Assembly (NCBI GenBank): GCA_026874595.1
Contig: CM049313.1
Location: forward strand, 48,037,659-48,101,658
DNA from: Sipunculus nudus
Taxonomy: Eukaryota > Annelida > Sipuncula > Golfingiida > Sipunculidae
Reading direction: 5' to 3'
Length of the DNA stretch: 64,000 nt
The notes below the pieces were generated by a model, which saw only the letters and a program-made list of their open reading frames with translations, was not told where the DNA came from and did not search any database. Positions within the stretch are counted from its first letter, which is position 1. Each line of letters begins with the position of its first letter. A program made the translations under genes and the position numbers. Shown here one piece after another: positions 18,101-42,030 of the stretch.

Positions 18101-21100
18101 TCCGATGAAAATAACCGCTCAGGTCCTATATTATACCATCGTTATAATTGGCAGAAGTTATTAGAGATGAAACTTCGGCAATAAACTCCAGTACCTTGTG
18201 GTGCTTATGTTTCTATGAATCATTAAGATTCACAGGTACTAGAATTAGTCAGCCGATAATATTTTTGATCTGTCATACTGTTTCTTGGTCTCTTTGATAA
18301 ATTAATTAAAATGTTAATGATGCTTCATTTCAGGCTGGATTAAAGTAATCTTACTGTAATACCCCTAGGTGCAAGTTGAAAAATACACCAGTGCCTGCGG
18401 ACTCCACAAGATAGATGCCAAAAAAAATATCCGATAAAAATACAGGTACTAGATTCAACAGGCCGAAAACACTTTCGATCTGTGATTTTGTTTCTTGGTC
18501 TCTTTGATAAATTAATTATAATGTTCATGCTGCTTCATTTCAGACTGGATTGTAGCAATAGTAATAAAGTACCCTTAAGTGCTAGTTGAAAAATACACCA
18601 AAGCCTTCGGGCTCCACAAGATAACTGCCACAAAAATGTCCGATGAAAATAACCGCTCAGGTCCTATGTGACACCATCGTTATAGTTGGCAGAAGTTATT
18701 ACAGATGAAACTTCGGCGATAAACCCGAGTACCTTGTGGTGCTTATGTTTCTATTAATCATTAACATTCACAGGTACTAGACTTAATCTGTCGATAACAT
18801 TTTCGATCTGTCATTTTGTTTCTTGGTCTCTTTCATATATCAATTAAAATGTTAATGCTGCTTCATTTCAGGCTGGAATAAAGAAATCTTACTCTAATAC
18901 TCCTAGGTGCAAGTTGAAAAATACACCAGTGCCTGCGGACTCCACAAGATAGCTGCCACAAAAATATCCGATGAAAATACAGGTACTAGACTCAACAGGC
19001 CGAGAACACTTTCGATCTGTCATTTTGTTTCTTGGTCTCTTTGATAAATTAATTATAATGTTCATGCTGCTTCATTTTAGACTGGATGGTAGCAGTCGTA
19101 ATGAGGTACTCGTAAGTGCTACTTGAAAAATACACCAAAGCCTACCGCTCCACAAGATAAGTGCCACAAAAATGTCCGATGAAAATACCGTCCTAGGTCC
19201 TATTTGATACTATCTTTATAGTTGGCAGAAGCTATTAAAGATTTAAATTCGGCGATAAACCCCAGTACCTAGTGGTGCTTATGTTTCTATGCATCATTAG
19301 CATTCACAGGTACTAGACTTAATCAGCCGATAATACTTTCGATCTGTCATTTTGTTTCTTGATATCTTTGATAAATCATTTAAAATCTTCATGCTGCTTC
19401 ATTTCAGGATGAATTGTAGCAATCTTGCTGTAGTACCCCTAAGTGCTAAATGAAAAATACACCAGTGCCTGCGGACTCCACAAGATAGCTGCCACAAAAA
19501 AAATCAATTGAAAATACAGGTACTAGACTCAGCAAGCCGATAACATTTCCGATCTGTCATTTTGTTTCTTGGCCTCTTTGATAAATTAATTATAATGTTC
19601 ATGCTTCTTCATTTCAGACTGGATTGTAGCAATCGTAATGAAGTACCCCCAAGTGCTACTTGAAAAATACACCAAAGCCTACGGCTCCACAAGAAAAGAG
19701 CAACAAAAATGTCCGATGAAAATACCGTCTAAGGTCCTATATGATACCATTTTTATAGGTGACAGAAAATAATACAGATGAAACTTGGCGATAAACCCCA
19801 GTACCTTGTGTTGCTTATGTTTCTATGCATCATTAGCATTCACAGGTTCTAGACTTAATCTGGCGATAACATTTTCGATATGTCATTTTGTTTCTTGGTC
19901 TCTTTGATCAATTAATAAAAAAAGTGTTCATGCTGCTTCATTTCAGACTGGATTGTAGGAATCGTAATGAAGTACCCATAAGTGCTACTTGTAAAATACA
20001 CCAAAGCCTACGGCTCCACAAGAAAAGTGCCACAAAAATGTCCGATGAAAATACCGTCTCAGGTCCTATTTGATACCATTTTTATAGGTGACAGAAATTA
20101 TTACAGATGAAACTTGGCGATAAACCCCAGTACCTTGTGGTGCTTATGTTTCTATGCATCATTAGCATTCACAGCCGATAAGCCGGTAACTTTTTTGATC
20201 TGTCATTTTGTTTCTTGGTCTCTTCGATAAATTAATCAAAATGTTCATGCTGCTTTATTTCAGGTTGTATTGGAGCAATCGTAATGAAGTACCCCGAAGT
20301 GCTACTTGAAAAATACACCAAAGCCTGCGTGCTCCACAAGATAACTGCCACACAAATATCCGATGAAAATAACCGCTCAGGTCCTATATGATACCATCGT
20401 TATAGTTGGCAGAAGTTATTACAGATGAAACTTCGGCGATAAACTTCAGTACCTTGTGGTGCTTATGTTTCTATGCATCATTAGCATTCACAGGTACTAG
20501 ACTTAATCAGCCGATAATATTTTTGATCTTTCATTTTGTTTCTTTGTCTCTTTGATAAATTGAGCCTTCGGGCACCACAAGATAACTGCCAAAGAAATGT
20601 CCCATGAAAAAACCGTCACAGGTCCTATTTGATACCATCGTTATAGTTGGCAAAAGTTTTTACAGATGAAACTTTGGCGATAAACCCCAGTACCATGTGG
20701 TGCTTATGTTTCTATGGATCATTAGCATTCACAGGTACTATACTTAATCAGCCGATAATACTTTCGATCTGTCATTTTGTTTCTTGGTCTCTTTGATAAA
20801 TTATTTAAAATGTTCATGCTGCTTCATTTCAGGATGGATTGTAGCAATTGTACTGTAGTACCCATAGGTGCAAAATGAAAAATACACCAATGTCTAAGGG
20901 ATCAACAAGAAAAGTGCAACAAAAATGTCCGATGAACATACCGTCTCAGGTCCTATATGATACTGTCTTTATAGTTACCAGAAACTATTAAAGATGAATC
21001 TTCGGGGAAAATCCCCTGTAATTTGTGGTGCTCATGTTTCTATGCATCATTTGCATTCACAGGTACTAGAATTAATAAGCCGATAACATTTTGGATCTGT

Positions 21101-22807
21101 CATTTTGTTTCTTTGTCTCTTTCATAAATTAATCAAAATGTTCATGCTGCTTTATTTCAGGTTGCATTGGAGCAATCGTAATGAAGTACGCTGAAGTGCT
21201 AGTTGAAAAATACACTAAAGCCTACGTGCTATACAAGATAACTGCCACAAAAATGTCCGATGAACCGCTCAGGTCCTATATTATACCATCGTTATAATTG
21301 GCAGAAGTTATTAGAGATGAAACTCCGGCGATAAACTCCAGTACCTTGTGGTGCTTATGTTTCTATTAATCATTAGCATTCACAGGTACTAGAATTAGTC
21401 AGCCGATAATATTTTTGATCTGTCATACTGTTTCTTGGTCTCTTTGATAAATTAATTAAAATGTTAATGATGCTTCTTTCAGGCTGGATTAAAGTAATCT
21501 TACTGTAATACACCTAGGTGCAAGTTGAAAAATACACCAGTGCCTGCGGACTCCACAAGATAGATACCACAAAAATATCCGATGAAAATACAGGTACTAG
21601 ATTCAACAAACACTTTCGATCTGTCATTTCGTTTCTTAGTCTCTTTGATAAATTAATTATAATGTTCATGCTTCTTCATTTCAGACTGGATTGTAGCAAT
21701 CGTAATGAAGTACCCCCAAGTGCTTCTTGAAAAATACTCCAAAGCCTACGGGCCCCACAAGATAACGGCCACATAAATGTCCGATGAAAATACCGTCTCA
21801 GGCGCTATTTGATATCAACATTATAGTTGGCAGAAAATATTACAGATGAAACTTCGGCGATGAACCCCAGTACCTTGTGGTGCTTATGTTTCTATGGATC
21901 ATTAGCATTCACATGTACTAGAATTAATCAGCCGATAATATTTTCAATCTGTTATTTTGTTTCTTGGTCCCTTTGATATATTAATTAAAACGTTAATGCT
22001 GCTTCATTTCAGGCTGGATTGAAGTAATCTTACTGTAATACCCTTTAAGTGCAAGTTGAAAAATACACCAGTGCCTGCGGACTCCACAAGATAGCTGCCA
22101 CAAAAATATCCGATGAAAACACAGGTACTAGACTCAACAGGCCGATAACACTTTCGATCTGTCATTTTGTTTCTTGGTCTCTTTGATAAATTAATTATAA
22201 TGTTCATGCTGCTTCATTTTAGACTGGATGGTAGCAGTCGTAATGAGGTACTCGTAAGTGCTACTTGAAAAATAGACCAAAGCCTTCGGGCTCCACAAGA
22301 TAACTGGCAAAAAAATGACCCATGAAAAAACCGTCACAGGTCCTACTTGATACCATCGTTATAGTTGGCAGAAGCTATTACAGATGAAACTTCGGCGAAA
22401 ATACCCTGAACCTTGTGGTGCTTATGTTTCTATGCATCATTAGCATTCACAGGTACTAGACATAATCTGCCGATAACATTTTTGATCTGTCATTTTGTTT
22501 CTTGGTGTCTTTGATAAATTAATTAAAATGTTCATACTGCTTCATTTCAGGCTGGATTGAAGCAATCATACTGTAGTACCTCTAGGTGCTAATTGAAAAA
22601 TACACCAGTGCCTACGGGCTCCACAAGATAACTGTCACAAAAATGTCCGATGAAAATAACGTCTCAGGTCCTATTTGATACCATCATTATAGTAGGCAGA
22701 AGCCATTACTGATGAAACTTCGGCGATAAACCCCAGTTCCTCGTGGTGCTTATGTTTCCATGCATCATTAGCACTCACAGGTACTAGACTCAATCCGCCG
22801 ATAACAC
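12115..22807 (-). repeat. Satellite array B1 (inverted monomers, ~323-331 bp)
   Basis: Reverse-complement monomers marked by GTGCTTATGTTTCTATGCAT, CGATAAACCCCAGTACC and GATCTGTCATTTTGTTTC. The anchor recurs at about 12179, 12509, 12832, 13155, 13478 and 13717, mostly 323-331 bp apart, with deleted units of about 239 bp that join 'gataaattga' to 'gccttcgggc'. Monomers are on average slightly shorter than in A1. No gene is visible; ORFs of 60-72 codons are monomer translations. About 10.7 kb without other content. Confidence 0.93.
14640..18580 (-). repeat. Block duplication in B1, period 2,078 bp
   Basis: About 14640-16500 recurs at about 16718-18580 with very few differences. The 219 bp at 14929-15147 and 17007-17225 appears identical. 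A related block, marked by 'aagggatcaacaagaaaag', appears again near 20894 and in B2 near 46466. The near-identity indicates a very recent copying event. Confidence 0.85.
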
Positions 22808-23505
22808 GCGATAGTCAAAGACACTAACTTTTTACTTGATATCTTGGATGACTTCATTTCAAATTTTGAGTGTCCTTCATTTTAAACTGGATTGAAGCTA
22901 CCTGACTGTAGTAACCATACATTTTAGTTGAAGACACACTAGTATCTATAGATTTCACAATATTACTGCCACAAAAATATTCGGTGTAAATTCCGTCTGT
23001 GTTATAGTCTGACACCATCAATACAGTATGCATAACTACAAGAGATGAAACTTCGGCGATTAACCCGAGTACCAGTTTCTCCGATTTCATTACATTAAAG
23101 TTACACAAATGTAATTTTTCTGCTTAAATATGCCGTAAAATGGATGCCGCTGTAAATATTTCAGAATTACTTCCAGTCTTAGGTTAGATTTACTGTATAG
23201 AACTTTCATAAGAATGCTTGATAAAAAATGTCCCACGTGCTTATTTCTGATTAAAATCAGCTACGTTGTTTTATCAGAAAATCACACCAGCATTTTGTAG
23301 TGCTTATATTTTAACGCATGATTAGTTTTCGCAGGCAGTAGCCTCAATCGGCCGATAACAGTATCGATCCTTAAAAAAAACTAAATTTTCTTTTTTGTGT
23401 TTGTGTTTTTTTTTATCTTGGATGTAATGAATTTAAAATATGAAAGTTTCTTAATTTAAAGCTGGGTTGAAGCAACCTGACTGTAGTACCCTTAGGTGTC
23501 AGTTA
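22808..23505 (-). repeat. Degenerate satellite edge, copy 1
   Basis: Two strongly diverged B-type monomers. Recognisable pieces are 'gatgaaacttcggcgatta' (~23045), 'actgccacaaaaatattcgg' (~22970), 'cggccgataaca' (~23349) and 'ctgactgtagtaccctta' (~23475). The 84-codon minus-strand frame 22854-23108 is a monomer translation. Against copy 2 (50381-50635) it shows three amino-acid changes and one silent change, which looks neutral. Arrays usually decay at their edges because homogenisation fails there. Confidence 0.8.
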
Positions 23506-23769
23506 AAGAATACATACGGGCCTCATATTCTGAAGCTGTAATTCCGCATTTGAAACTTGGAGTGTTTTGAGTGTTTCGTTTTGTTTATTTTATTGTGTTT
23601 GAAATTTTCACCACAAAGTTTTTCCTGTAGATTCCTTGTATTTCCATCCTTGTGGATCTGTAAACCGGTGAAATTTAAAGACTGGTATAAAGATTACGGT
23701 CTGCACAAGTACTGGTAATTTTAGTTAAAGCGTCTCACTCTTGTGTTCACAGTATCAAACCTCGCTTTA

Positions 23770-23800
23770 ATACCCCCCCCACCCCCCACCCCAAAAAAAA
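23770..23800 (+). repeat. Poly-C/A tract
   Basis: C-rich run interrupted by A, length-variable versus copy 2 (51298-51328). The following 23,800-24,230 is AT-rich, with T-homopolymers and nothing else I can identify. Confidence 0.85.
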
Positions 23801-24233
23801 ACTTATTAAATGGCTGAACTATTCCCTCCAATAATATCTTTTACGCATTTTTTATTTACAATTAAAAGTATCCACGAATCGTTTATTGCGATCATCTTTA
23901 ACCCTATTAATATTTACATTTTTGATATTTTTTTTTTAATTTTCAAAGATTTTTAAATTTAACTATACAGTGAATCTTTATTTTTTTAAGAAATTTTTTC
24001 TTTGATGAAATGTGTATTCAGTAAATGAGAAAGTTATTCTTAAGGTGCAATAATCAAAATTACATAAGTCATTTTTTTTTTTTTTGCTTCCTGGTTTTTA
24101 ATAAAGACCCTGCATGAGGGATATATTCTTTTTTTTTTAATTCAAAGTAATCCAAAATATTAAAACATAGCACAAATCATACTCAGGTTTTGTTATCCAT
24201 GTTTTATGTTATGAAAAAGAGATACAAGCTTAC

Positions 24234-24308
24234 CTCAGAATGCGGTTTCTCATTTACAAACGTGCGGTCAACTGCAAACCGTATTCACTTTCCATGATAT
24301 TATCTGGT
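24234..24308 (-). other. Candidate first exon of left outward transcript, copy 1
   Basis: Downstream of the TATA box on the minus strand come ACACCAG, then ATG at 24295 opening a 13-codon frame (MESEYGLQLTARL, stop). An overlapping ATG at 24253 leads into GAG|GTAAGC, a good 5' splice site with intron starting at 24233. The arrangement parallels the right module at 33615-33722. With an early stop in the first frame the transcript may be non-coding. The next sequence downstream on this strand is the satellite edge. Confidence 0.4.
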
Positions 24309-24332
24309 GTCCCGTGGTTCAAAGTTCATTGC

Positions 24333-24457
24333 CCTTTATATATCTTAATATATCAACATTTAACCAATGACAACGGGTCGATAAGATTTGTCATCATTTA
24401 AACAAGCTGCGGCCCGCCCAGCCACTTGATTAGCATCGTTCATAAGTGCTAATTAAC
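24333..24457 (-). promoter_or_regulatory. Left outward promoter-like module, copy 1
   Basis: Read on the minus strand, a 34 bp block (24457 to 24424) begins GTTAATTAGCA and continues through GAACGATGCT and ATCAAGT. About 105 bp from the start of that block comes TATATTAAGA (24352-24343), followed immediately by a canonical TATATAAAGG (24342-24333). The same block is found at 33492-33525 in opposite orientation with 31 of 34 matches. The CTAAT/TTAATTA motifs are homeodomain-like. Promoter function is inferred from motif order and duplication. Confidence 0.5.
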
Positions 24458-24459
24458 TC

Positions 24460-24870
24460 GTAACAGTTCCGAACATGTTTGAGATCGTGCACCATGGTCA
24501 TAGGTTTACGCACATTATTCCAATGGATAATAATACATAAAGTCCCAGCAGTTAAAGAGAGCAATATTTTCTTCAACAGATTCGTCCATTCTTTACAATT
24601 ATGCATGATCCGATATTATATTAAATTTCCTCATCCATTGGAATATTTGAACCCTGGTTTCTTGGTGTTATTCTCGGAACAAATATCAGATCTTATTTGT
24701 GGAAATTATAACGATCTGCGGTTGACAAATGAATATAATACATATATTATTTTTATGTTTTAAAGTAATCGTTTTAAAAATTGTACACTGATAACTTCAG
24801 TTAATAATTAGTAAAGATTATTTCAGTATTTTACTAATTAAACTAATGTTTAGAAAGGTTTATCTGAACA
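24460..24870. other. No recognisable feature
   Basis: AT-rich single-copy DNA. The 94-codon plus-strand frame at 24479-24763 does not persist at the same length in copy 2, so it is unlikely to be coding. Confidence 0.5.
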
Positions 24871-25049
24871 CAGGTATATATATATATATATAATAACAAT
24901 AATAATATCAATAATAATAACTAATACATGTATAGCCGTGAGAGTCTGTAATTGAAGCGTAGGTAAAGATAAAGAGCGACGTCTTTAAGATAGAGTTACT
25001 TATTTATTAACACACGAGCTTTCGAAGCGCAAACGCTTCTTCGTCAGGT

Positions 25050-25110
<61 letters not shown>
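24871..25110. repeat. (TA)n microsatellites flanking a PLE-like repeat tail, copy 1
   Basis: (TA)n at 24871-24892 and 25052-25109. Between them, on the minus strand, a short frame reads PPDEEAFALRKLVC then stop (about 25046 to 25002). At DNA level this includes the hairpin GAAGCG-caaa-CGCTTC (25024-25039). Similar 'cctgacgaag...gcttcgaaagct' tails are, from memory, widespread in invertebrate dispersed repeats, possibly Penelope-like elements, so I read this as a fossil 3' end. No reverse transcriptase is visible nearby. Confidence 0.45.
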
Positions 25111-25112
<2 letters not shown>

Positions 25113-25312
25113 ATTCATGTGTTAGTGTAAGCGTGTCTTTCAGGTCAACTTAGTGCCACTGACATCCTTCAACTGACAAAACATTGGAAGTATCGTCTGT
25201 GGACCGTGACGGGTGGTGACGAACTGAAGCCCGACGTTAATTATATTTAAAATTATAATGAATAATTACCCTGTTTTAATAAGATTAAATATATTCAATT
25301 TACGTGGAGGAA

Positions 25313-25513
25313 ATGTTTCTACCCGGAGATGATCCATATATATATCCAGAGGATGACCGTGTACCGTCTTCACCGTCCCGGTTCTCCTGGTCCATCTTCA
25401 TCAAGGTCGTCAGGCAGGTACGTAGTCTGAGAAAAACTCTGTACAAGAACTCCGCATGTTGGACCTTGGTGGAGGTATGCCCCAACCTTAAGTCCTTGAA
25501 TCATCCGTGTTAA
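25313..25513 (+). CDS. Small conserved ORF, copy 1 (doubtful)
   Basis: A 66-codon frame from ATG at 25313 (an upstream GTG at 25304 adds three codons). It starts MFLPGDDPYIYPEDD, is rich in P, S and D early, then basic. The two copies differ at two positions, CTA/CTC and GGA/GGG, both silent, so the protein is identical. The same changes are also silent in the overlapping minus-strand frame, which weakens that argument. An internal CAG|GTACGT splice donor follows FIKVVRQ and could make this a first exon. I do not recognise the product; chance conservation in young duplicates is quite possible. Confidence 0.18.
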   Translation: MFLPGDDPYIYPEDDRVPSSPSRFSWSIFIKVVRQVRSLRKTLYKNSACWTLVEVCPNLKSLNHPC

Positions 25514-25611
25514 ATATTTACGTTTACAGGATTAGTTCAATCGGTATTAAGACAAGGGGAAAGTGAGGTTTCTGCTGAAACCCGTTTGTATACTCGTTAA
25601 TCGTCGTCCTT

Positions 25612-25677
<66 letters not shown>

Positions 25678-25837
25678 TATAATGGAATTCAATTTCGAAA
25701 GGGAAGCATATGCCACCTTTCACCTGCACTTTCACCTGCAATAAATATGTACATAAAGACATATCCAGGGGATGCTATTTCGAAACTGCCATAAGATAAC
25801 AAAGAAAGTGAAGATAAAGAATCATGCATCTCGAACG

Positions 25838-25872
<35 letters not shown>

Positions 25873-26000
25873 AAAGTGCTCGATACATAAAAGTAGAGCT
25901 GCTATAATTTCATAAATACAATATTGCATAACTGTCACTACCCGCAGGTTTCGTGATCACTCTGTACTCATTAGGTCACCCTGGAATTATATATATATAT

Positions 26001-26038
<38 letters not shown>

Positions 26039-27135
26039 TACAATTCATATAATATATTAAATGGATTTCAATTTCGGAAGGGAAGCATATGCCATAACAT
26101 CTGTTGTATATAAAAATGAAATCGGCATTAGTATGAATTTTGCCGTAACTTTATCAAAACTAAATCATGCAAAAGGTTATGTTAAGGTTATCTTTGGAAT
26201 ATTTTGTCATTATCCGTAATCCTATTCATCTTCATTTATTTTGTGAACACAGATCAGTCAATCAATCAACCGTAGATTAATTAATCCATCATTCGGTGCT
26301 CACCGTTCGGCCCATTGTACCGTTAAAGAACAATAGTATTTGTCATATCGCGAAATATATAAAATGAAGGAAAGTGTCTTAAATTATATAAAAATAAGAA
26401 AGTTCCTAGAACCGTTTTGGAGGCTGCTATCGAGGCTTGTCGCATGTGTCTTATTTCACTTTACAAAACCCTGGAGGAAGACTCCGTCACGGGCAGTGCA
26501 CATGCTCGATAAAAGGTTTTTTAATTAAGCAACTTAATTGTTATATATTTCAATACTGCGAGATACATTTAAGCTTCATGTCACAGAGAAATGTCCGAGA
26601 GCAGCTTAATTGAGCTCAGGGGAATCGCGCCTTAGATGTTTTGTTGGTTATTCAAATCAGAACCGTTTAAAATGCCCTAAACACGATATATACGGACGCC
26701 CTATTATATTGTTGATAATGTTACATTCAGATATTAAAATTATATTCAAACGAAAAAACCCAGTGAATTTGTAATAGTTTTTCAACCCGCATATCACTAG
26801 TATAAGTATTTATAGTAAATATAAAGTATAAATATATAGAGTTTATTTATATTTGTTACAAGGGCCTTTCCCCAACCCATCATTTTATATGATATTGAGG
26901 ATTGCCTTTCCCGGTGCTATTCCCCTCAATGTGGTAAATTTCAATGGTATTTGAAAAGTATTTTTTTTTAAACTGTTGAGAAATTGCACAGCTTAGAAAC
27001 GTGACCCTTATATCTACGATAAAGGTAAGCCATATCAACACGCATAGCAATTAAAAAAACTGCTATTTATCAGTCGAGAAAAAACAACACTTCTGGATAT
27101 GATCTCTCGTATGAAACCCTTCCGCAAACCTCTGT
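25514..27135. repeat. AT-rich stretch with (TA)n microsatellites, copy 1
   Basis: (TA)n at 25614-25674, 25841-25869 and 25988-26038. A ~25 bp phrase, 'gaattcaatttcg' then 'agggaagcatatgcca', occurs at 25684 and, as 'ggatttcaatttcgg' with the same continuation, at 26063. This suggests a small dispersed or duplicated sequence around the microsatellites. The 62-codon frame at 26340-26528 is interrupted by a stop and indels in copy 2. Nothing else is recognisable. Confidence 0.6.
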
Positions 27136-27149
27136 CCCTAGCCCCGTTT

Positions 27150-27186
27150 ACTCTCTCTGTCTCTCCCTGCCTCTCTCTCTCCTCTC

Positions 27187-27229
<43 letters not shown>
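27150..27229 (+). repeat. (CT)n microsatellite, copy 1
   Basis: CT-rich tract ending in about 20 uninterrupted CT units. Copy 2 (54688-54775) is longer. Minus-strand ORFs here (RERERER) are artefacts of the repeat. Confidence 0.95.
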
Positions 27230-27232
<3 letters not shown>

Positions 27233-27498
27233 GTTTACGTGTTATTGTAATAAAATGTATACTGAATGATAAACAGGTAACAGAATATATTCTGAATGAT
27301 ACACAGGTAGCACGGATGCATATTAGATAACCACTCGCCTCTTGAAGAAGGTATGTTCTTAAATGATCATGAGGCGGAGATTTCCTGGGGCTAGTAGCTA
27401 GTGAATTACATACCATAATGGTTATGAAACTAAAGAAACGTTTGCCAATTATTTGACAACTCAGTCAATTTATCAAAAGCTGACCGTCGGGCAGGCAC

Positions 27499-28531
27499 TA
27501 GGCCCCTGCGCGGGGCGGGTTTTGACCCGCAGCCAGCGGGGGCCCGTAACCCGCGGTCCCCTGCGGGCCCCCGCATAGGAATCTTTGCGGGGCGTGACGG
27601 GCTACATCTAAGAAAGTGCGGGCGGGGCGGGCTGAAATGAGTCTATGCGGAGCGGGCCGGGCTGCGCGTTGATGATCTGGCAGTTCAGTAAAAATATGAA
27701 TATAAAATTATACTTAAAAAAAACAATCATTTTAAGAAATTGGTGTTTCTGTAAAAAATGTTTTCAGGTGTCGTAACAATAGTAATATGAAAAGATAAAT
27801 TTGAAAAAAAAAAATTATTCCTGTTAATGCCTTACACTGACTGACAGTTGTAACACACTATGCAAATCTGTCTTTAATTATTATTACGTCAATTTGTTAT
27901 ACAAAATAGATGATACATCCTTAATCTGAAATCTAGACTTTAAACAATTATCCTTGCAATGGAAGCTGGTCATTACTTTGCATAAAGTTACCTGGCCTGA
28001 TGATGTATATGGACTGTAACCCTGTACACATATTATATAATATGGCTGGGAGTGAAGCAAGGGCTCGATTACCTTTGATCTTGTAATAGACAGTTTGTGG
28101 CTTCAGCTGGCTGTGTAGGTGACTCAGTTGACCTGGAACTGCACAAAGCCTAAGGTGGACTCCTTTTCTAATTGTAAATTTTTCATTCCAATCATCAAAC
28201 ATTTCATATATATCAATAATAAGCGTGTCTGATATATGTGCTGTAAAATATCTTGATATGTAAACCTTTGGATCCGAAAACTATTTTTAATTATTTTCCG
28301 GGCTGGCCTGCGGGCCGGAAACTTGAAAAACGCGGGGCGGGGCGGGTGCGGGCTGAAAGAAAATTTTTGTAGGACGAGTGCGGGCTGAAAGAAAATTTTT
28401 GTAGGACGAGTGCGGGCTGAAAGAACTGCGGGGCGGGGCGGGCTGAATTTATTTCTTTGATTGCTGGGCGGGCTGACAGAGCATGATGCGGGGCGGGTGC
28501 GGGTTCAATTTTCAGCCCTCGCAGGGCCCTA
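27499..28531. mobile_element. Non-autonomous hAT-type element, copy 1
   Basis: Ends TAGGCCCCTGCG (left) and, read inverted, TAGGGCCCTGCG (right), 11 of 12 matching. Left flank is GCAGGCAC. The right flank retains only GTAG before a 7 bp deletion, whereas copy 2 keeps a perfect 8 bp duplication. Both ends are dense in GCGGGCTGAAA and GGGGCGGG motifs, strikingly GC-rich against AT-rich surroundings, and able to form strong hairpins. A 32 bp unit starting GTGCGGGCTGAAAG is doubled at 28346-28409 but single in copy 2. An 84-codon minus-strand frame (27948-28202) is conserved but unrecognised. No hAT dimerisation domain is seen. Confidence 0.85.
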
Positions 28532-30180
28532 GTAGTTGATAGGTTGATATTGATATTAGTCAAATTGTACTTATTTAGACATAACACGAACTGTTTATAA
28601 AAGCGATTTTTAACTGTGTGGATATAAAATTATTGAGTAATTTTCCATATCTTGGAACAGCCCTTTGACAGGCCTATCCATGATCCGCAAGAGTGCCCCC
28701 CCCCCCCCCTTGGAGTACTGTTACTGAGCCTATGTAAGAAATTCTCGAAGCTGAAGGTAACAGTTTGCTAAAATTTCATAAAGAATATGTCAGGGATTTT
28801 TCAATAGTTACTTCATCCTTCCTTACATGATAGTGACATTTAGTTTAAAAAAATCAAACCCAGAAAAGCATTAAAGCACTATGGTAACAAATGATAAAAA
28901 TAAAAAAAACTGCATATGTATTGTAATATATGTGTGAACAAAATAACATGTCATATATTAAAAATATTAATTAAAAAAAATAGAAAACAGAAAAACAAGA
29001 CGAAGTGTTCATTAAATAACCCAAATAAGGATTTTTTATCATTATTATTATAACTGTTATTATTAATATTATTCGATAAACAGTAGTTTAAACATGGGTC
29101 CATAACAATAAACATGCCTTCCGGAGGACAGAGACCAGGTAATCATTTCCTCAATATTATAATGATCTACAATTGATTAATATTTTTCAAACTAGAAAAT
29201 ACACAGAGACCACATACCTCCGCCAACCTTCTTGCTCACTAGATATATTATTCGGGTCCTGATCACACTTTTGTTTGTGGTACGTGAGTAATATAATAAG
29301 CACAGGGAATATATTAACTAAAGCGAGAGAAATGGGTGTCACTGATCACCAGCTCTGAGGTTGTATCACATCTGAGCTCTGTTCGCCAGAGCAAAAGCGG
29401 CTAAATTAAAGTCATACATGTGTGCATTACCCGGCCCGAAATCCCGGCCTGTTGGAAAAAAATTTTCCTCAAGGCTCTCCCTAATGTAAGTGAATGACGA
29501 TGGTCTCACCTCGCATTCGGCTTGACAAACAAATTGCCCTAATGTCACTGATAAAGATTCCTTTGAACGAAAACATTTTGTTATGATGATTCAGATTACC
29601 AGCCTTACTGTCCACTCATGACTTTATTTTTGGTTAGGTTGCTTTTTTTGCAGAAAAACCAGTCAACGAACGGTAGTGAAATCATAACACCTCCTTGTAA
29701 TGGTATAACTTGCTGAGGTATAACCAGGTTCTCGACATTAGCGTGTTATGTTACATGTACCTATACCTGACATTTTATAATTCCCCATGCAGCTCATCAC
29801 CTCTCTGTCACGCACACACAGACAAACCCACATCAGAGGGCAACCATGCGACTGAAATTTGGAAAAAAAACTAGAACAGACAAATTCCTATGTAGAATAT
29901 TAAATGTTATGTTATGACTAACAATGCGTAATCTTTCGCTTTATTGCCTTACGTTCATTTTGTTTGAGAAACTTTTTGACCATACTTATTTCTCGGAAAT
30001 GGGAAACGGTTGGAGTTAAACAATCACTCCCAGGTTATTATGAGGTCTGTTGCGCATTATAAGTACTTTTCAAAGATTTCTTTTGTGCGAACTGGTCAGC
30101 ATATCTAACGCTACATGGTGTTTCAAAATCAGACACATAAAGAGTGCCGGATCAGGTGAGGTGAAAAGGATGCAGTTGCT
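28532..30180. other. Single-copy spacer, no gene recognised, copy 1
   Basis: Includes a C14 tract at 28696-28709. A 60-codon minus-strand frame (29366-29548) has an identical protein in both copies, but the whole 29,300-29,850 stretch is essentially identical at DNA level, so this says nothing about coding. 'acATGCCTTCCGG' near 29113 followed by CCAG|GTAATC could be a tiny exon but has no support. Confidence 0.4.
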
Positions 30181-30186
30181 CCGCTC

Positions 30187-30210
30187 ATTGGTCACGTGAT
30201 AGTGACATAA
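30187..30210 (+). promoter_or_regulatory. CCAAT / E-box / CRE-like cluster, copy 1
   Basis: ATTGG (inverted CCAAT) is followed at once by GTCACGTGAT, a USF/MYC/TFE-type E-box, then TGACATAA. In copy 2 the last motif is TGACGTAA, a full CRE/ATF half-site. Tight clustering of three classical promoter motifs suggests a promoter or enhancer. No TATA box or gene was identified next to it. The nearby ATG at 30257 opens only ten codons. Confidence 0.4.
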
Positions 30211-30219
30211 CACGCGGCT

Positions 30220-31640
30220 AGTTCCTTGGTCATGTAACTGTCATGTGCGATGAATCATGAAGGCGTTCTTTTGTGCGTTGCTTTTATGAAAAAAAAAGAT
30301 TATGTGTAACATATGTATTTTTACGAATGACATACGGAGTACACTAAAATAAGCTGTTGAACATTTTCTAGATATTTTCGTAAATATCATGGATTTACGC
30401 TTGTTTATCGTAAACTATCATTTAAAGTCATTTTCATCTGTTTAAATTATTATATTACATAAATTAGAGAAAGTTAAATCCAATGGAATGCCTTATTTCG
30501 TGCAAAGCAAAGTATCCATTGGACAACACATACTATATGAGCTAGTAATTAACAAAAGTCTGAATTGGACAAAATGGACAGTAATAGAGTTGACTGTTTG
30601 GGTATCTCATTTTCTGTAAGCATTAATCTAACCTAATTTCTCCACCGAACCAAAAATAGATACATTTAAAACATAAGCGATCAATATATGTATAATTACA
30701 AAGATTTTCTGTAAGGTAAAGTCCAAAAATATCGATAAATCGAGTTCAAAGTTAAAGAATCTTAGTTTTCACCTAGATTTACAAAAACGACACTGACCTC
30801 ACTCACCTCACTGACGCCCCCTGTCTTGGATGAATGGTACTGAGTGTTCGGGCCCGATGTGTGAGAAATATTTACATAAAACACAATTAACGGAGGACTT
30901 TTTCAGTATTTAAAGATTTTACTGAGAATATGTCAGACTCAGTAAGCACAACATGCGAACAATGCATGTTATTCTCCGTACCTACCTAACCTATACTTGT
31001 TACTTTGTATTCATATTCAGAAAAATAAATGAATAAATAGCGAAAAGTCATGAAATTTTCAAATTCGCATATGTGAAATATTCTGTTAAATAACATAACT
31101 GAATAGGTATAATTTTCTAATTCGTAATCGCCAGCACTGTATAATAAATTATAAACAATTTTTGTGTAGCATTATTTCTGACCATAAGTTCACAATGATT
31201 TGCCACACATTAATATTCTAATAAACCTGAATAATATCTGTCACGATGTAGCGATGAAAAGAGTACTAGAGCACTTCTAACCGAGTAATCAATTCAAACT
31301 TTACTCTGAAGTAGCCGTGTGTATATATTTGGATCAGTATAATAACACAAACGTATAAAAGCCTGTATAAATACAATATTTCTGGGATATTTTAAGCAGT
31401 GCTTAAATTTTTTCTGTGCTCTGAAATATTTCACTACAGCAAGTAATCACATACCAAATACATGCTGTCAAACGGTGTTATGCCCGAAACTACAATAAAT
31501 ACACATTTTGTATCGGTAAATAGCTGACTGTTTATATATTTAAGACAATGTTTTTATAGTGTTGTCATACCAACGGTTCCTAGAAGGTAAACCGAGTATT
31601 CGAGAATAAGCGGATCCTGGGGGACGGTCCATAGGGTCCG
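30220..31640. other. Single-copy spacer, nothing recognised, copy 1
   Basis: AT-rich DNA without long frames or repeats. It ends at a C-rich tract (31644-31659) that is shorter in copy 2. A 12 bp segment near 31,400 is absent from copy 2. Confidence 0.5.
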
Positions 31641-31904
31641 CATCCCCCCCCCCTCCCCCTTGTTCCGTAGCCGGGGACCTTTATTTTGGGTTTTGTCAAA
31701 TATCCTCTAGGGTTAGACCCCCCCTTTCCTTCATCCTAGTTCCGCTCTTGTCGAGTTTAAATTTGCTATACGTTTTAGTACTCTATACCTAGGCAATGAT
31801 TTACTGAAGAGAACGTTACGTTGATTTGCCATACAACTATGTCGTTCCATTGCATACACAACTGAATTGTTTATAATCTACATGACCTCCATGAATAAAA
31901 AATT

Positions 31905-32100
31905 ACTTATTTTCAAGAGCATTAGATAATTTGTGAACTGCTGACTCCACGCGAAAGAAACTCTTTCCGGGCGAAGCGGGTTCAATTCCTGGAGTGGCTA
32001 GGAGAATGAATTCTTGTGTTCCGTAAAAAAAACTGTGTTTTCCAGGCCCTGCGGTTTCCTCCACACTATATCTTACTGAACATATGGGCCATGTACAGTA
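31905..32100 (+). mobile_element. tRNA-derived SINE, copy 1
   Basis: A near-perfect pol III B box GGTTCAATTCC at 31979-31989 is preceded by 'agagcattagataattt', which resembles the D-arm to anticodon part of a tRNA. Some 45 bp further on, GTGTTTTCC and GCGGTTTCCTCC resemble the conserved central domain of SINE families common in marine invertebrates (Nin/Meta type). Antisense translation gives the familiar SINE artefact ATPGIEPASPG. The 5' end is not well defined. The downstream (TA)n at 32331 may mark the old tail. Both core copies have it, so insertion predates duplication. Confidence 0.6.
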
Positions 32101-32325
32101 TTTCGCATTGGTTATCACAACTATGTGTGCAATCCATGTTAAAAAAATACAGTTTAAAAAGTCATTATCCGGTTCAAGACATGAATGTTTATCGTAAAGG
32201 AAACCTCGGATCAGCAAGCCCATTGTTTGTGAGTAATAAACCAAAGATGAAAGAGCATCAAATAGTGTTATTGAGAGATAAAAGCCGGTCCCATTCATCA
32301 AATTAGTGTGGTAGCAACACCTCAG

Positions 32326-32392
<67 letters not shown>

Positions 32393-32493
32393 TATATATA
32401 TATAATAAATATTTGCATTTATGCAAATGCATAAATATATATATAAAATTAATATATATACCAATATATTTATATAATTAATATTTATATACA

Positions 32494-32585
<92 letters not shown>

Positions 32586-32864
32586 CGTATTTCCATCAAT
32601 CATCATGCATGGTAATGTGGTTCATCACGGTTGACTGACGAACGAGGAGGTTCCGCCAAGTGATCATTATTCAGATAAATACACATCGTCGCGTCCGTTC
32701 ATTGATTTATAATACACAATTAGTTTAACAAATTCCTAAATAATTACAAAGTGCTGTTCGTTAATGTAAAAACATAAATGTAAATCATTGAAAGTTCCCC
32801 TGTGTAAACAGAGATTTTTAAAGCGTAGGCTATTGCTATATTTCTATCTATGATATAAGTATGG

Positions 32865-32916
<52 letters not shown>

Positions 32917-33070
32917 CTATATATGTATATGTATATATATATAAATTGATTTTATTATTAAAATTTAACTTTAATATAAATATATGTATGCACGTTATTA
33001 TATGCTCGTTCTCTGTCTCTCGTCTGTCTGTCTCTGTCTCTCTGTCTCTCTGTCGCTCTCTCTCTATATA
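32101..33070. repeat. Microsatellite-rich segment, copy 1
   Basis: (TA)n then (CA)n at 32331-32401, (TA)n then (GA)n at 32495-32581, (TA)n at 32866-32942 and mixed CT/GTCT at 33003-33068. Between them is ordinary AT-rich sequence. ORFs of repeating YIYI or SLSL are artefacts. Confidence 0.9.
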
Positions 33071-33074
33071 TATA

Positions 33075-33146
33075 TGTCTGACATTCTAACCTGATGAGTG
33101 CAGAAAAAGGTTGCACGAAACTACGTCGTAGTAAACATGACTGACA
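33075..33146 (+). ncRNA. Type I hammerhead ribozyme motif, copy 1
   Basis: All core elements are present in order: CTGATGA (33091-33097); stem II GTGCA/TGCAC (33098-33102 with 33112-33116) closing a 9-nt loop; GAAA (33117-33120); a two-base-pair stem III AC/GT with a three-base loop; and GTC ending at 33127, the predicted self-cleavage point. Stem I can pair 33075-33090 with 33128-33146 discontinuously, TGTC with GACA at the far end, leaving internal bulges as is normal for loop-loop contacts. Very short stem III is the form known from Penelope-like elements and retrozymes. The motif is single rather than tandem and identical in both copies. Activity would give RNA with a 2',3'-cyclic phosphate end. 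Confidence 0.8.
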
Positions 33147-33149
33147 AAA

Positions 33150-33480
33150 TATGATTTTTTTTCTAATTATGTTTAATTATATATATATATATATATAAAG
33201 ACATATATATCAATAAGTAAAATAAAATAGGATTAAATATGTGTCTCCATATGTCCAAGTAACGCACTGCAAAAAAAAGTTGCAAACAAAATTTAGTAAT
33301 AATAATAAAAAATAATAATATTAAAACAAAAATGAAAATATTAATAATATATAAATTCACTTAAAATATAAATATAATTGATATATATATCATATATATA
33401 ATATATCATATATATAATTTTGTGATTATTTGAACAGATGATCACTTCAATGCATGCCCAAAACCTCGTAACGCGTTAGA
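33150..33480. repeat. AT-rich segment with TA and AAT tracts, copy 1
   Basis: (TA)n at 33178-33196 and 33380-33418 with an AATAATA-rich stretch between. No gene. Confidence 0.8.
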
Positions 33481-33491
33481 ACACGCTTTTG

Positions 33492-33650
33492 GTTAATTAG
33501 CATTAATGAACGATGCTCATCAAGTCACGGCCCGCTTGCAGTAACGGCCTAAGCTTGTTTATGGGTAACAAAACCCGGGCTTGTTGGCAATCGCTAACCC
33601 CTGCACCATTAAGGTATATTAAGAGGCCTTGGACAAGAACACCATCAGTT
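33492..33650 (+). promoter_or_regulatory. Right outward promoter-like module, copy 1
   Basis: A 34 bp upstream block starts GTTAATTAGCA and contains AATGAACGATGCT. TATATTAAGA (33615-33624) is the TATA box. TCAGTT at 33645-33650 is a textbook initiator whose A (33647) lies 32 bp after the TATA start. The ordered motifs recur, inverted, at 24457-24333. The TATA-to-Inr distance is exactly what TFIID-dependent promoters need. It points away from the core towards satellite A2, whose first monomer starts at 34126. Confidence 0.6.
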
Positions 33651-33722
33651 CACACCAGGTTCAAAATGATGTTGCATAGAACGGTCAATGCAGTTTGTGT
33701 GACACAGGAGCAGCTATGTCAG
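33647..33722 (+). other. Candidate first exon with CAG|GTAAGT donor, copy 1
   Basis: From the predicted start A at 33647 come ACACCAG, then ATG at 33666 opening MMLHRTVNAVCVTQEQLCQ in phase 0 to a consensus 5' splice site at 33722|33723. An upstream in-frame ATG at 33513 lies in the promoter and would not be transcribed. The peptide is not recognised and has no clear signal sequence. A candidate 3' splice site, 'actttttttggcag', sits about 500 bp downstream in the first satellite monomer (~34226-34239). A polyadenylation-like AATAAA at about 33814 could instead end the transcript early. Confidence 0.45.
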
Positions 33723-34073
33723 GTAAGTCGTGAGGGTTTATAGCAACTGTTATAAACATATTTATTTTTGCCAACATATATGATTTTATCTCTTGAAAAT
33801 GTTATGTGTATAAATAAAAGGTTTCCAGTGTACTTGAACACTGCGTAGCGGTTTATTCAAAAAGAGATTTATCGATTAAACTTTGCTGTAACAGATAAAA
33901 ATCTTAAAGCATCAACATGAAGTACAAAAAGGGAAACCATTATTTTCAAGGTTATTTTTTGTCCGATAACCAATTGAATAAAATTCAAATATAAATTATA
34001 ATATTGTATGAGATTATACAAATTAGGAATTTCTGGGACCAATATCACTGTTAGACGAGAAACAGAGGTAACA

Positions 34074-34076
<3 letters not shown>

Positions 34077-34125
<49 letters not shown>
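34077..34125. repeat. (TA)n at core/satellite boundary, copy 1
   Basis: The microsatellite abuts the first satellite base ('ggggttaatcgcc') with no degenerate monomer between. The left edge of the core, in contrast, decays gradually. The same join occurs at 61606-61677, where the tract is longer. Confidence 0.95.
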
Positions 34126-34127
<2 letters not shown>

Positions 34128-34980
34128 GGTTAATCGCCGAAGGTTCAACAGTAACAGCTTCTGCTGCCTAGCTGTCTATCAATATGGTGTCAAATAGAAA
34201 CTCTGTCTTAATTTCCATTGGACACTTTTTTTGGCAGTTATCCTGTGGAGCCCGAAGGCAATGGTGTATATTTTCAACTAGCACCTAGGGGTACTACAGT
34301 AAGACTGCTTCAATCCAGCCAGAATTGAAGCAGCATGAAGGTTTTAATTAATGTAATAAATCGATTAGGAACTCAGACATAATTTCAATCGGAGCCTTTT
34401 GTGGCACTTATTTCGTGGAGCCCGAAGCCACGGTTGTACTTTTAACTAGCACCTGCTGGTACAACAGTAAAATTGCTTTAATCCAGCCTGAAATGAAGCA
34501 GCATGAACATTTTATTTAATGTATAAAACAGATAAAGAACCAAAATGACAATGTTTTAAGATCGAAAGCGTTATCGGCTGATTGAGTGTAGTACCTGTGA
34601 ATGCTAATGATACATAAAAACATAAGCACCACAAGATATTGGGGTTAATCGCCAAGGTTTAAACTGTTTAGGGCATGCCGACTATAATCATGGTTTCAAT
34701 TCGGAAATCAGAGATAATTTCCATCGGAGCCTTTTGTGGCACTTATTTTGTGGAACCGGAAGCCACTGCTGTACTTTTAAACTAGCACCTGAGGGTACTA
34801 CAGTAAGACCCTTCAATCCAGCCTGAAATGAAGCAGCTTGAAGGTTTAAATTATTGTAAAGAAATGACGATAAAATAAATTAACAGTGTTTTAAGATCGA
34901 AACTGTTATCGGCTGATTGAGTCTAGCTTATTCTTGTGAATGCTAATGATGCATAGAAACATAAGCACCACAAGGTACTT

Positions 34981-37900
34981 GGGTTAATTGCCGAAGTTTC
35001 ATCTATAATATCGTCTACTAACTGTAAGGATGGTATCAAATAAGACCTGAGACGGAATTTTCTTCGGACATTATGTGGCAGTTATCTTGTGGAGTCCGTA
35101 GGCACTGGTGTGTTTTTCAATTACCATCTAGGGGTACAACAGTAGGATTGCTTCAATCAAACTTAAAAAGAAGCAGCATGAACATTTTAAGTAATATATG
35201 GAACAGATAAAGAAACAAAATGACAATGTTTTAAGATCGAAAGTGTGTTATCGGCTGATTGAGTCTAGTATCTGTGAATGCTAATGATACATAAAAACAT
35301 AAGCACCACAAGGTACTGGGGTTAATCGCCGAAGTTTCAACGGTTTTAGGGCATGCCGACTATAATCATGGTTTCAATTCGGAAATCAGACATAATTTCC
35401 ATCGGAGCCTTTTGTGGCACTTATTTTGTGGAGCCGGAATTAAATGTTGTACTTTTAAACTAGCACCAAGGGTTACAACAGTAAAATTGCTTCAATCCAG
35501 CCTGAAATGAAGAAGCATGAACATTCTGTTTTAAATGTTTAAAACAGATAAAAAAACAAAATTACAATGTTTTAAGATCTAAAGCCTTATCGGCTGATTG
35601 AGTGTAGTACCTGTGTATGCTAATGATACATAAAAACATAAGCACCACAAGGTACTGGGGTTAATCGCCGAAGTTTCAACGGTTTTAGGGCATGCCGACT
35701 ATAATCATGGTTTCAATTCGGAAATCAGACATAATTTCCATCGGAGCCTTTTGTGGCACTTATTTTGTGGAGCCGGAATCAAATGTTGTACTTTTAAACT
35801 AGCACCTAGGGTTCCAACGGTAAAATTGCTTCAATCCAGCCTGAAATGAAGCAGCATGAACATTCTGTTTTAAATGTTTAAAACAGATAAAGAACCAAAA
35901 TTACAATGTTTTAAGATCGAAACTGTTATCGGCTGATTAAGTGTAGTACCTGTGTATGCTAATGACGCATAGAAACATAAGCACCATAAGGTACTGGGGT
36001 TAATTGCCGAGAAACTCTGACATAATTTCCCTCGGAGCCTTTTGCGGCACTTATTTTGTGGAACCAGAAGCCACTGCTGTACTTTTAAACTAGCAACTAG
36101 GGTTACAACAGTTAGGTTGCTTAAATCCAGCCTGAAATGAAGCAGCATGAACAGTTTATTTAATGTATAAAACAGATAAAGAACCAAAATAACAATGTTT
36201 TAAGATCTAAAGTGTTATCGGCTGATTAAGTCTAGTACCTGTGTATGCTAATGATGCATAGAAAAATAAGCACCATAAGGTAATGGGGTTAATCGCCGAA
36301 GGTTCTACAGTTACAGCTTCTGCCGCCTATCGATATGGTGTCAAATAGAAACTCTGACATAATTTCCATTGGACACTTTTTTGGCATTTATCCTGTGGAA
36401 CCCGTAGGCACTGGTGTATATTTTCAACTAGCACCTAGGGGTACTACAGTAAGACTGCTTCAATCCAGCCTGAAATGAAGCAGCATGAAGGTATTAATTA
36501 TTGTAACGAAATGATGAAAAAAAAAATAACAGTGTTTTAAGATCGAAAGTGTTATCGGCTGATTGAGTCTAGTACCTGTGCATGCTAATGATGCATAGAA
36601 ACATAAGCACCACAAGGTACTGGGGTTAATTGCCGAAGTCTCACCTATAATATCTGCTGCCAACTATAATAATGGCATCAAATAGCACCTGAGACGGCAT
36701 TTTCATCGGACATTTTATGGCAGTTATCTTGTGGACCCCGTATGCACTGGTGTATTTTTCATTAGCACCTAGGGTACTACAGTATGATTGCTTCAATCCA
36801 GTCTGAAATGAAGCAGTATGAACATTTTGACTAATATATGGAACAGATAAAGAAACAAAATGACAATGTTTTAAGATCGAAAGCGTTATCGGCTGATTGA
36901 GTGTAGAACCTGTGAATGCTAATGATGCATAGAAACATAAGCACCACAATGTACTGGGGTTAATTGCCGAAGTTTCATCTATAATATCGTCTACTAACTG
37001 TAAGGATGGTATCAAATAAGACCTGAGACGGAATTTTCTTCGGACATTATGTGGCAGTTATCTTGTGGAGTCCGTAGGCACTGGTGTGTTTTTCAATTAC
37101 CATCTAGGGGTACAACAGTAGGATTGCTTCAATCAAACTTAAAAAGAAGCAGCATGAACATTTTAAGTAATATATGGAACAGATAAAGAAACAAAATGAC
37201 AATGTTTTAAGATCGAAAGTGTGTTATCGGCTGATTGAGTCTAGTATCTGTGAATGCTAATGATACATAAAAACATAAGCACCACAAGGTACTGGGGTTA
37301 ATCGCCGAAGTTTCAACGGTTTTAGGGCATGCCGACTATAATCATGGTTTCAATTCGGAAATCAGACATAATTTCCATCGGAGCCTTTTGTGGCACTTAT
37401 TTTGTGGAGCCGGAATTAAATGTTGTACTTTTAAACTAGCACCAAGGGTTACAACAGTAAAATTGCTTCAATCCAGCCTGAAATGAAGAAGCATGAACAT
37501 TCTGTTTTAAATGTTTAAAACAGATAAAAAACAAAATTACAATGTTTTAAGATCTAAAGCCTTATCGGCTGATTGAGTGTAGTACCTGTGTATGCTAATG
37601 ATACATAAAAACATAAGCACCACAAGGTACTGGGGTTAATCGCCGAAGTTTCAACGGTTTTAGGGCATGCCGACTATAATCATGGTTTCAATTCGGAAAT
37701 CAGACATAATTTCCATCGGAGCCTTTTGTGGCACTTATTTTGTGGAGCCGGAATCAAATGTTGTACTTTTAAACTAGCACCTAGGGTTCCAACGGTAAAA
37801 TTGCTTCAATCCAGCCTGAAATGAAGCAGCATGAACATTCTGTTTTAAATGTTTAAAACAGATAAAGAACCAAAATTACAATGTTTTAAGATCGAAACTG

Positions 37901-38560
37901 TTATCGGCTGATTAAGTGTAGTACCTGTGTATGCTAATGACGCATAGAAACATAAGCACCATAAGGTACTGGGGTTAATTGCCGAGAAACTCTGACATAA
38001 TTTCCCTCGGAGCCTTTTGCGGCACTTATTTTGTGGAACCAGAAGCCACTGCTGTACTTTTAAACTAGCAACTAGGGTTACAACAGTTAGGTTGCTTAAA
38101 TCCAGCCTGAAATGAAGCAGCATGAACAGTTTATTTAATGTATAAAACAGATAAAGAACCAAAATAACAATGTTTTAAGATCTAAAGTGTTATCGGCTGA
38201 TTAAGTCTAGTACCTGTGTATGCTAATGATGCATAGAAAAATAAGCACCATAAGGTAATGGGGTTAATCGCCGAAGGTTCTACAGTTACAGCTTCTGCCG
38301 CCTATCGATATGGTGTCAAATAGAAACTCTGACATAATTTCCATTGGACACTTTTTTGGCATTTATCCTGTGGAACCCGTAGGCACTGGTGTATATTTTC
38401 AACTAGCACCTAGGGGTTCTACAGTAAGACTGCTTCAATCCAGCCTGAAATGAAGCAGCATGAAGGTATTAATTATTGTAACGAAATGATGAAAAAAAAA
38501 TAACAGTGTTTTAAGATCGAAAGTGTTATCGGCTGATTGAGTCTAGTACCTGTGAATGCT
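34981..38560 (+). repeat. Block duplication in A2, period ~1,976 bp
   Basis: About 34981-36590 recurs at about 36957-38560. The 318 bp frame at 35870-36187 is repeated with identical protein at 37845-38162. The few differences include 'gggtactac' versus 'gggttctac' (~36440, ~38412). The second macro-copy (from 62520) matches the first block. Confidence 0.85.
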
Positions 38561-39001
38561 AATGATGCATAGAAACATAAGCACCACAAGGTACTGGGGT
38601 TAATTGCCGAAGTCTGATCTATAATATCGTCTACTAACTGTAATGATAGTATCAAATAAGACCTGAGACGGCATTTTCATCGGACATTTTATGGCAGTTA
38701 TCTTGTGGAGCACGTAGGCACTGGTGTATTATTCAATTAACACCTAGGGGATCTACACTATGTTTGCTTCAATCGAGCCTGAAATGAAGCAGCATGAACA
38801 TTTAACTAATATATGGAACAGATAAAGAAACAAAATGACAATGTTTTAAGATCGAAAGCGTTATCGGCTGATTGAGTCTAGTATCTGTGAATGCTAATGA
38901 TGCATAGAAACATAAGCACCACAAGGTACTGGGGTTAATCGCCGAAGTTTCAACGGTTTTAGGGCATGCCGACTATAATGATGGTTTCAAATCGGAACCT
39001 A

Positions 39002-41994: not shown

Positions 41995-42030
41995 TGTATA
42001 TTTTCAAAAATTTTCGATGAAAATACCGTC
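41995..42030. other. Satellite inversion point A|B, copy 2
   Basis: The same fused sequence as at 12100-12135, differing by a few bases nearby (for example 'ccgtctcagg' versus 'ccatctcagg'). The two inversion points are about 29.89 kb apart, the cores 27.53 kb. The difference reflects satellite copy-number change and the piggyBac insertion. Confidence 0.85.

Follow-up and report, generated by a model that had tools for sequence, protein, structure and literature searches.

For many satellites, which occur at several chromosomal sites, it is difficult to tell from which promoter transcription comes. Human satellite III is abundant and pericentromeric, and the histone clusters of newts lie in satellite 1, where promoters within an island of ~9 kb transcribe into the flanking satellite by lampbrush read-through. 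In the portions of the literature cited here, Drosophila hsr-omega (heat-shock RNA omega) is a non-coding gene that was first described with an exon 1 of ~475 bp, an intron of ~700 bp and an exon 2 of ~750 bp, followed by 280-bp tandem repeats over ~5-15 kb (PMC9865238), and the human satellite III stress transcript is a long non-coding RNA with a satellite body (PMC9032817). The Drosophila Rsp and 1.688 satellites are sources of PIWI-interacting RNAs (piRNAs) through long transcripts, with units of 260-359 bp in the 1.688 family (PMC8321551), and the Balbiani ring genes of Chironomus form a family in which heads of similar promoter, exon 1 and intron 1 precede tandem-repeat bodies (PMC4192438). 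The present analysis concerns 64,000 bp of Sipunculus nudus DNA (the window; C8:48037659-48101658 in a genome of 1.43 Gb and 153 contigs), in which satellite arrays begin behind paired, outward-facing promoter-like modules. Long arrays just downstream of promoter look-alikes suggest repeat-made non-coding RNA genes, and the reading preferred here, with a probability of roughly 45%, is that of divergent non-coding RNA genes with satellite bodies that would work like hsr-omega.

Promoter-like modules at the heads of satellite arrays

All coordinates are window coordinates unless given otherwise, and 100 kb on either side, a further 40 kb on the left and 14 one-kb samples were examined beyond the window. 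The window is part of a locus of ~310 kb with four related cores and eight satellite arrays, the shortest 3.7 kb and the longest ~95 kb. In all eight arrays the monomers are A-sense and run away from the adjoining core; an earlier interpretation made from the letters of the window (the sequence-only reading) had described the arrays flanking core 1 in this way, as inverted and both A-sense outwards. The exceptions are three minus hits of ~240 bp in array 0R, which overlap plus hits, and a 437-bp minus satellite remnant beyond array 2R. The unit recurs inside the window, where 22449-35671 and 49979-63210 are 97% identical, and in the three fully visible cores the back-to-back units stand 9-11 kb apart.

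The sequence-only reading had also placed in core 1 an inverted pair of modules, termed here M and P, sharing 31-32 of 34 bases of an upstream block. This pair was found in place (Table 1), with 31 of 34 block positions identical between M and P in cores 1 and 0, and 32 of 34 in core 2. Alignment of both modules, which the same reading had proposed as a check, showed them to be homologous: the local score reached 78, while 200 dinucleotide shuffles gave at most 28 (z 21.4), and it was 40 against a shuffle maximum of 34 when the block was cut off (z 8.2). The likeness was not significant in the exons alone (22, shuffle maximum 24), in the 500 bp upstream of the modules (56, shuffle maximum 61) or in the introns (39, shuffle maximum 50). 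Both core 1 modules carry the GTAAG donor reported earlier, as AGGTAAG, with the GT at 33723 (plus) and 24233 (minus). The proposed plus-strand start was retained at 33647 (A+1 of TCAGTT, 32 nt past the TATA at 33615); the minus-strand start was shifted from 24303 to 24310 (ACACCAG), the position given by equal 32-nt spacing from the TATA at 24342, so that the TATA-to-start spacing of the putative starts is the same in both modules. By offset, the corresponding positions in core 2 would be about 61175 (P) and 51837 (M).

Seven modules, four M and three P, were then compared in one alignment, 237 columns of which entered a run test. Fixed M/P differences were found in 0 of 33 block columns and in 100 of 204 columns elsewhere (p 3e-9). 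Columns without such a difference formed seven runs of at least five, namely the block (34), AGCTTGTTTAT (11), AGGTAAG (7), ATTAAG (6), six columns after the block, the TATA stretch (5 counted columns) and CAAAA (5); a TATA column with an M/P difference is excluded from the count because core -1 has a 4-bp deletion there. The longest run, 34 of 237 columns, compares with a maximum of 24 in 20,000 shuffles. The AGGTAAG donor is intact in all seven modules and the TATA in six of them, and the elements kept amid drift are roughly those that would be required by a TATA promoter whose 5' exon is spliced.

A 33-base pattern of the block, searched in the whole genome with at most 3 mismatches, gave seven matches, all at the locus, and its reversed-pattern control gave none. 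All seven copies head an array in the same A sense. The sequence-only reading had held that the pair would be a coincidental inverted duplication if there were neither capped 5' ends near the starts nor genomic recurrence of the block with a TATA box; the block with its TATA-like module does recur, exclusively as an array head, though through few duplication events. A conserved satellite 30-mer, searched in the same way with at most 3 mismatches, gave 726 genome matches (349 forward and 377 reverse; control 0), at least 702 of which could be assigned to the locus. The stretch examined in full contains 349 forward and 288 reverse matches, and 65 more reverse matches lie in the part of array -1L that is covered by one-kb samples. 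The remaining 24 would be accounted for by the monomer density of array -1L, 30-31 per 10 kb. Neither the block nor the 30-mer had an exact match in viral_contigs, and the 30-mer had no match in genome_contigs (prokaryotes). From these searches the satellite is apparently confined to one locus; the anatomy, its recurrence and the near-complete placement at one locus are direct observations. Such placement bears on a transposon of the Foldback or Galileo type, with long repeat-filled inverted ends and with the modules as terminal or subterminal repeats. The inverted arrays flanking each core would fit it, but it is very improbable, given that a single locus holds the seven block copies as well as the 702 satellite matches that were placed, in place of dispersed copies with target duplications, that the likeness of the core ends spans ~200 bp and not the tested DNA beside it, and that 0 of 11 window peptides scored above the Pfam cut-off.

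Satellite subtype was scored from monomer hits longer than 250 bp against an M-side and a P-side consensus. The arrays behind P modules were P-type (60/61, 23/23 and 252/252 monomers) and those behind M modules M-type (9/9, 42/44, 25/26 and 16/20). Subtype follows promoter type, by majority, in the seven arrays with a visible module, and this includes array -1R, which lies on the plus strand because core -1 is inverted and is still M-type. Since the consensus was built from window arrays, the informative tests are -1R and 0L, together with those portions of 0R and 2R that lie beyond the window. A bolder reading, which we consider rather unlikely, is that of a satellite class with no existence apart from its own promoters, whose body it forms: each of the two promoter types would have its own subtype, promoter-plus-array cassettes would have been multiplied and inverted with the sense kept, and non-coding units of up to ~95 kb would be inherited as one gene-like unit.

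Coding, transcription and rival readings

The layout of a short exon 1 with an ATG, a donor, 0.4-0.95 kb and then kilobases to tens of kilobases of repeats is also that of a protein-coding repeat gene of the silk, Balbiani ring or mucin type, in which a short exon 1 and an intron precede a giant repeat exon. This is the least credible of the readings weighed here. The monomer unit lengths are near 328 and 338 bp, neither a multiple of 3, stops occur in all six frames of the repeats, no codon periodicity was detected in the monomers, and the frame of the M exon 1 contains a stop (by eye). The longest open frames reach 89 aa in the A sense and 114 aa in the B sense in the 88-kb array, and 76 and 99 aa, respectively, in 65 kb of array -1L; a single giant coding exon is already refuted by these lengths. 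Given the missing periodicity and the stops, the tandem family of decayed genes that the sequence-only reading had offered as one form of its transcription units is not supported either, and the piRNA-cluster precursor that it had also named is not specifically favoured; what is supported of that proposal is paralogous TATA-promoter-like modules with a donor, facing outwards, each at the head of an A-sense array.

The preferred reading, non-coding RNA genes resembling hsr-omega, would make of the locus a small family of divergent RNA polymerase II (Pol II) transcription units. Each unit would be headed by a TATA promoter that has the 34-bp element upstream of it and is followed by a 5' exon of ~76 nt with a splice donor at its end; its body, after 0.4-0.95 kb, would be the locus's own 328/338-bp satellite in fixed sense, and neighbouring units would converge across their arrays. 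A factor would bind the 34-bp block, Pol II would start ~32 nt past the TATA, and the product would be an RNA with about ten to hundreds of repeat copies. From the sequence we infer transcription and splicing, and a role of the RNA as a multivalent nuclear RNA, a protein-binding scaffold or sink, as hsr-omega is. Over 197 kb of arrays, GTAAG occurs 352 times in the A sense against 11 in the B sense, and AATAAA plus ATTAAA 246 times against 492, a balance as expected of long sense transcripts, which counts little because only one repeat family is involved.

Several results weigh against this reading, and what the sequence hints about current activity ranges from mixed to negative. Within module types the block changes like the remainder (8/66 against 32/427, p 0.22); with no fixed difference between types, it points to constraint, or to copying between the two ends, that predates the multiplication of the cores, and it gives no sign of present constraint. 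The M module of core -1 has lost 4 bp of its TATA and has three block mismatches, and the TATA stretch differs by one base between the types (TATATAAAG in M, TATATTAAG in P). Other motifs run contrary to the balance above, with AGTAAA at 66 in the A sense against 5, and GTGAG at 9 in the A sense against 21. Strand bias was examined in rare variants at well-conserved non-CpG columns, context-matched, in 204 M and 336 P monomers; none was found in 12 tests on these 540 monomers (all |z| <1.7), and thus no trace of germline transcription. The eighth array, -1L, is M-type in 105 of 105 monomers (35 kb typed) where the inverted core predicts P; its head, where the module would lie, falls in a 2.5-kb stretch of N, and it stands as an unexplained exception to the subtype match. 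The agreement of all seven block copies does not represent seven independent events, because the copies stem from few duplications. Finally, no acceptor, exon 2 or terminal exon was identified, although no systematic search for them was made.

Several of these points favour passive amplification, a reading which we rank second, after the hsr-omega-like genes, and regard as a real, if doubtful, possibility. An ancestral divergent gene pair with real promoters would have had everything downstream of them taken over by a satellite that arose on the spot, and the promoter stubs, dead or dying, would have been copied with their arrays by unequal exchange and inversion. The background rate of block evolution among copies, the TATA deletion in core -1 and the lack of a transcription-linked mutation bias all agree with this, as do the variable array lengths (3.7 to ~95 kb) and the mobile-element-like inserts in the cores. 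It is at odds with the donor kept in seven and the TATA in six of the seven modules and, weakly, with the P module, which is identical between cores 1 and 2 across 291 bases; the latter is weak evidence because these cores have diverged by only about 1%.

At three junctions, adjacent arrays face each other across 9-49 bp, and read-through across junctions of at most ~50 bp would give long inverted-repeat RNA. A germline source of small RNAs could exploit this arrangement: convergent A-sense transcripts with read-through would yield double-stranded or PIWI-bound satellite small RNAs and heterochromatin on the locus. The stretches on either side of the 42-kb junction are ~78% alike. For the promoter that a uni-strand piRNA cluster has at its head, the modules, promoter-like by sequence, would be candidates. 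There is precedent in the transcription of Drosophila complex satellites (units >100 bp) into piRNAs, as described in the cited part of PMC8321551. The arrays are little interrupted, unlike clusters of transposon pieces (no systematic transposon search was made), and this origin is judged distinctly unlikely.

The best-conserved part of the monomer is consensus ~213-278, with ~5% variation against a mean of 15%, and it sits in an imperfect inverted repeat with the potential to form a hairpin of 23 pairs. In this hairpin 91% of cells are paired with only 5 double changes; slid controls gave 26-43 double changes, all above that figure, though the controls pair far less. G-U cells outnumber A-C cells by 228 to 58, two pairs supplying 160 of the 228. 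RNAalifold predicted no pairs on the 71-bp segment, and 20 single monomers had a mean folding z of -2.4 against mononucleotide shuffles. In 34100-37100, which covers part of a single P-type array, Rfam gave no match, and so no hammerhead motif, at E values up to 5, and no known RNA family (Rfam, gathering score) or tRNA was found in the window; 19 sub-threshold RNA-family hits in core 1 lay mostly on AT microsatellites.

Two links between modules and satellite were considered and dropped. The POU-like 8-mer ATGCTAAT occurs 94 times in the window arrays, always in the A sense, and four times in the cores, once per module, against an expectation of 1.02 per core; as a shared factor site it was rejected because the modules of cores 0 and -1 are without it. 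Derivation of the satellite from the modules was assessed in eight comparisons, one of which gave 0.02 and the other seven 0.09-0.63.

Layout of the locus and other features

Array lengths are ~95 kb (-1L), 3.7 kb (-1R), 16 kb (0L), 23 kb with an insert (0R), 11 kb (1L), 8 kb (1R), 9 kb (2L) and 88 kb (2R). Array -1L corresponds to contig positions 47877462-47972910, of which 30 kb are covered by samples only (3 of 3 one-kb samples were satellite). Array 0R begins outside the window, 0.9 kb past the donor of the core 0 P module. The donor-to-array distance is 0.40-0.95 kb in six of the seven modules; at the seventh (0L), a 236-bp satellite remnant is met after 0.7 kb, and it is 3.3 kb to the main array. 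The end of array 2R is ~9 kb before the nearest detected exon of a minus-strand NSA2 gene, assigned from three joined exon peptides that match NSA2 homolog chain 8fkr_NF (E 2.6e-56), and past it is a tandem block rich in TGACCTTTGACCT (L027, about 7280-8540).

Table 1. Positions of cores, modules and arrays in window coordinates (HMM, hidden Markov model)
Feature	Position	Strand	Remarks
Distal part of P-type array 0R	1-12114	+	Interrupted by insert ~9284-11131
Convergent junction of two arrays	12115-12163	.	49 bp between HMM hits
M-type array 1L	12164-23523	-	A-sense on minus
Core 1, unique DNA between two inverted satellite arrays	23524-34124	.	10.6 kb; array limits by monomer HMM
Putative non-coding exon 1, M type, core 1	24234-24310	-	Ends AG/GTAAG; short frame with stop, by eye
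TATA TATATAAAG, M type, core 1	24334-24342	-	32 nt before putative start 24310
34-bp upstream block, M-type module, core 1	24424-24457	-	
34-bp upstream block, P-type module, core 1	33492-33525	+	
TATA TATATTAAG, P type, core 1	33615-33623	+	32 nt before putative start 33647
Putative exon 1, P type, core 1	33647-33722	+	Ends AG/GTAAG
P-type array 1R	34125-42007	+	A-sense on plus
Convergent junction	42008-42056	.	49 bp; sequence closely like 12115-12163
M-type array 2L	42057-51048	-	A-sense on minus; 4/20 scored monomers P-type
Core 2, near-identical copy of core 1	51049-61676	.	10.6 kb; 97.2% identity to core 1
34-bp block, M-type module, core 2	51951-51984	-	
34-bp block, P-type module, core 2	61020-61053	+	
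P-type array 2R, start	61677-64000	+	Continues to window coordinate 149937 (88 kb)
Core 0	-24018 to -11559		12.5 kb
Core -1, inverted	Right end -46476		Left end lost in N at -64499 to -62000

Divergence between cores was counted in aligned 50-base windows with at least 45 letters and at least 78% identity, outside 29100-30450, and the figures leave out the more diverged or replaced parts of the cores. By this count core 1 differs from core 2 at 97 of 9023 positions (substitutions ~1% in the core), from core 0 at 385 of 5659 and from core -1 at 319 of 3722. The segment 29100-29850 was less divergent against core -1 (31/699 compared with the rate elsewhere, p 9e-5) and against core 2 (2/700, p 0.05), and not against core 0 (41/697, p 0.42). 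A conserved coding exon in the core was rejected as a candidate, because its best frame (25312) shifts where core 0 lacks 2 bp and core -1 has 4 bp extra.

A perfect palindrome, ATTTGCATTTATGCAAAT, made up of two facing octamer-like sites, lies at 32411-32428 and 59918-59935, ~1.1 kb upstream of the P module. Cores 1 and 2 contain a GC-rich insert with TAGGSCCCTGCG inverted ends (27499-28531 and 55044-56049), flanked in core 2 by an 8-bp duplication, GTAGGCAC, that is decayed in core 1; core -1 has the empty site. We take this insert to be hAT-like. The insert in array 0R has TTAA on both sides and inverted ends AACAC-TTCGCTGCC, and is piggyBac-like by its motif. Core -1 carries an insert resembling, by eye, a long interspersed nuclear element, with frames of 405 and 1185 aa (L013, -58450 to -53646), which breaks homology with the other cores. 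Between array 0L and its module lies a reverse-transcriptase-like piece (L016, -26541 to -25137), a decayed-looking retrotransposon piece with one frame matching zf-RVT above the Pfam cut-off.

Comparison with known systems

With ~700 units, a seemingly single location and a defined promoter-like module at every readable array head, this satellite would allow the sense, start site and copy number of its RNA to be tested locus by locus, and, provided that it is transcribed, the locus would offer a naturally occurring series of dosage variants of a single repeat RNA gene. A layout of this kind was not found by title or abstract start in open-licence papers, a weak negative. The newt histone clusters differ in that no histone 3' stem-loop was found here, as no Rfam match reached the gathering score in the window, and in that the satellite described here lies at one locus. 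The Rsp and 1.688 satellites share the long repeat units, but are transcribed through the Rhino/Moonshiner pathway, and TATA heads are not described in the cited part of that account (PMC8321551). The Balbiani ring genes are, as here, a like-headed family before giant repeats, but their repeats are coding and these are not. Human satellite III has in common the satellite-bodied non-coding RNA, a candidate here, whereas the present satellite is located at one place, next to promoter-like modules that are unique. The likeness to hsr-omega is one of architecture only, a non-coding tandem-repeat body behind a promoter-like head. A second exon was not found here (no systematic search was made), exon 1 measures ~76 nt, and the locus has seven heads that are visible and related to each other, promoters of two types placed back to back and arrays of up to ~95 kb. 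What looks new among these systems is the combination of apparent confinement to one locus with a promoter type matched to satellite subtype.

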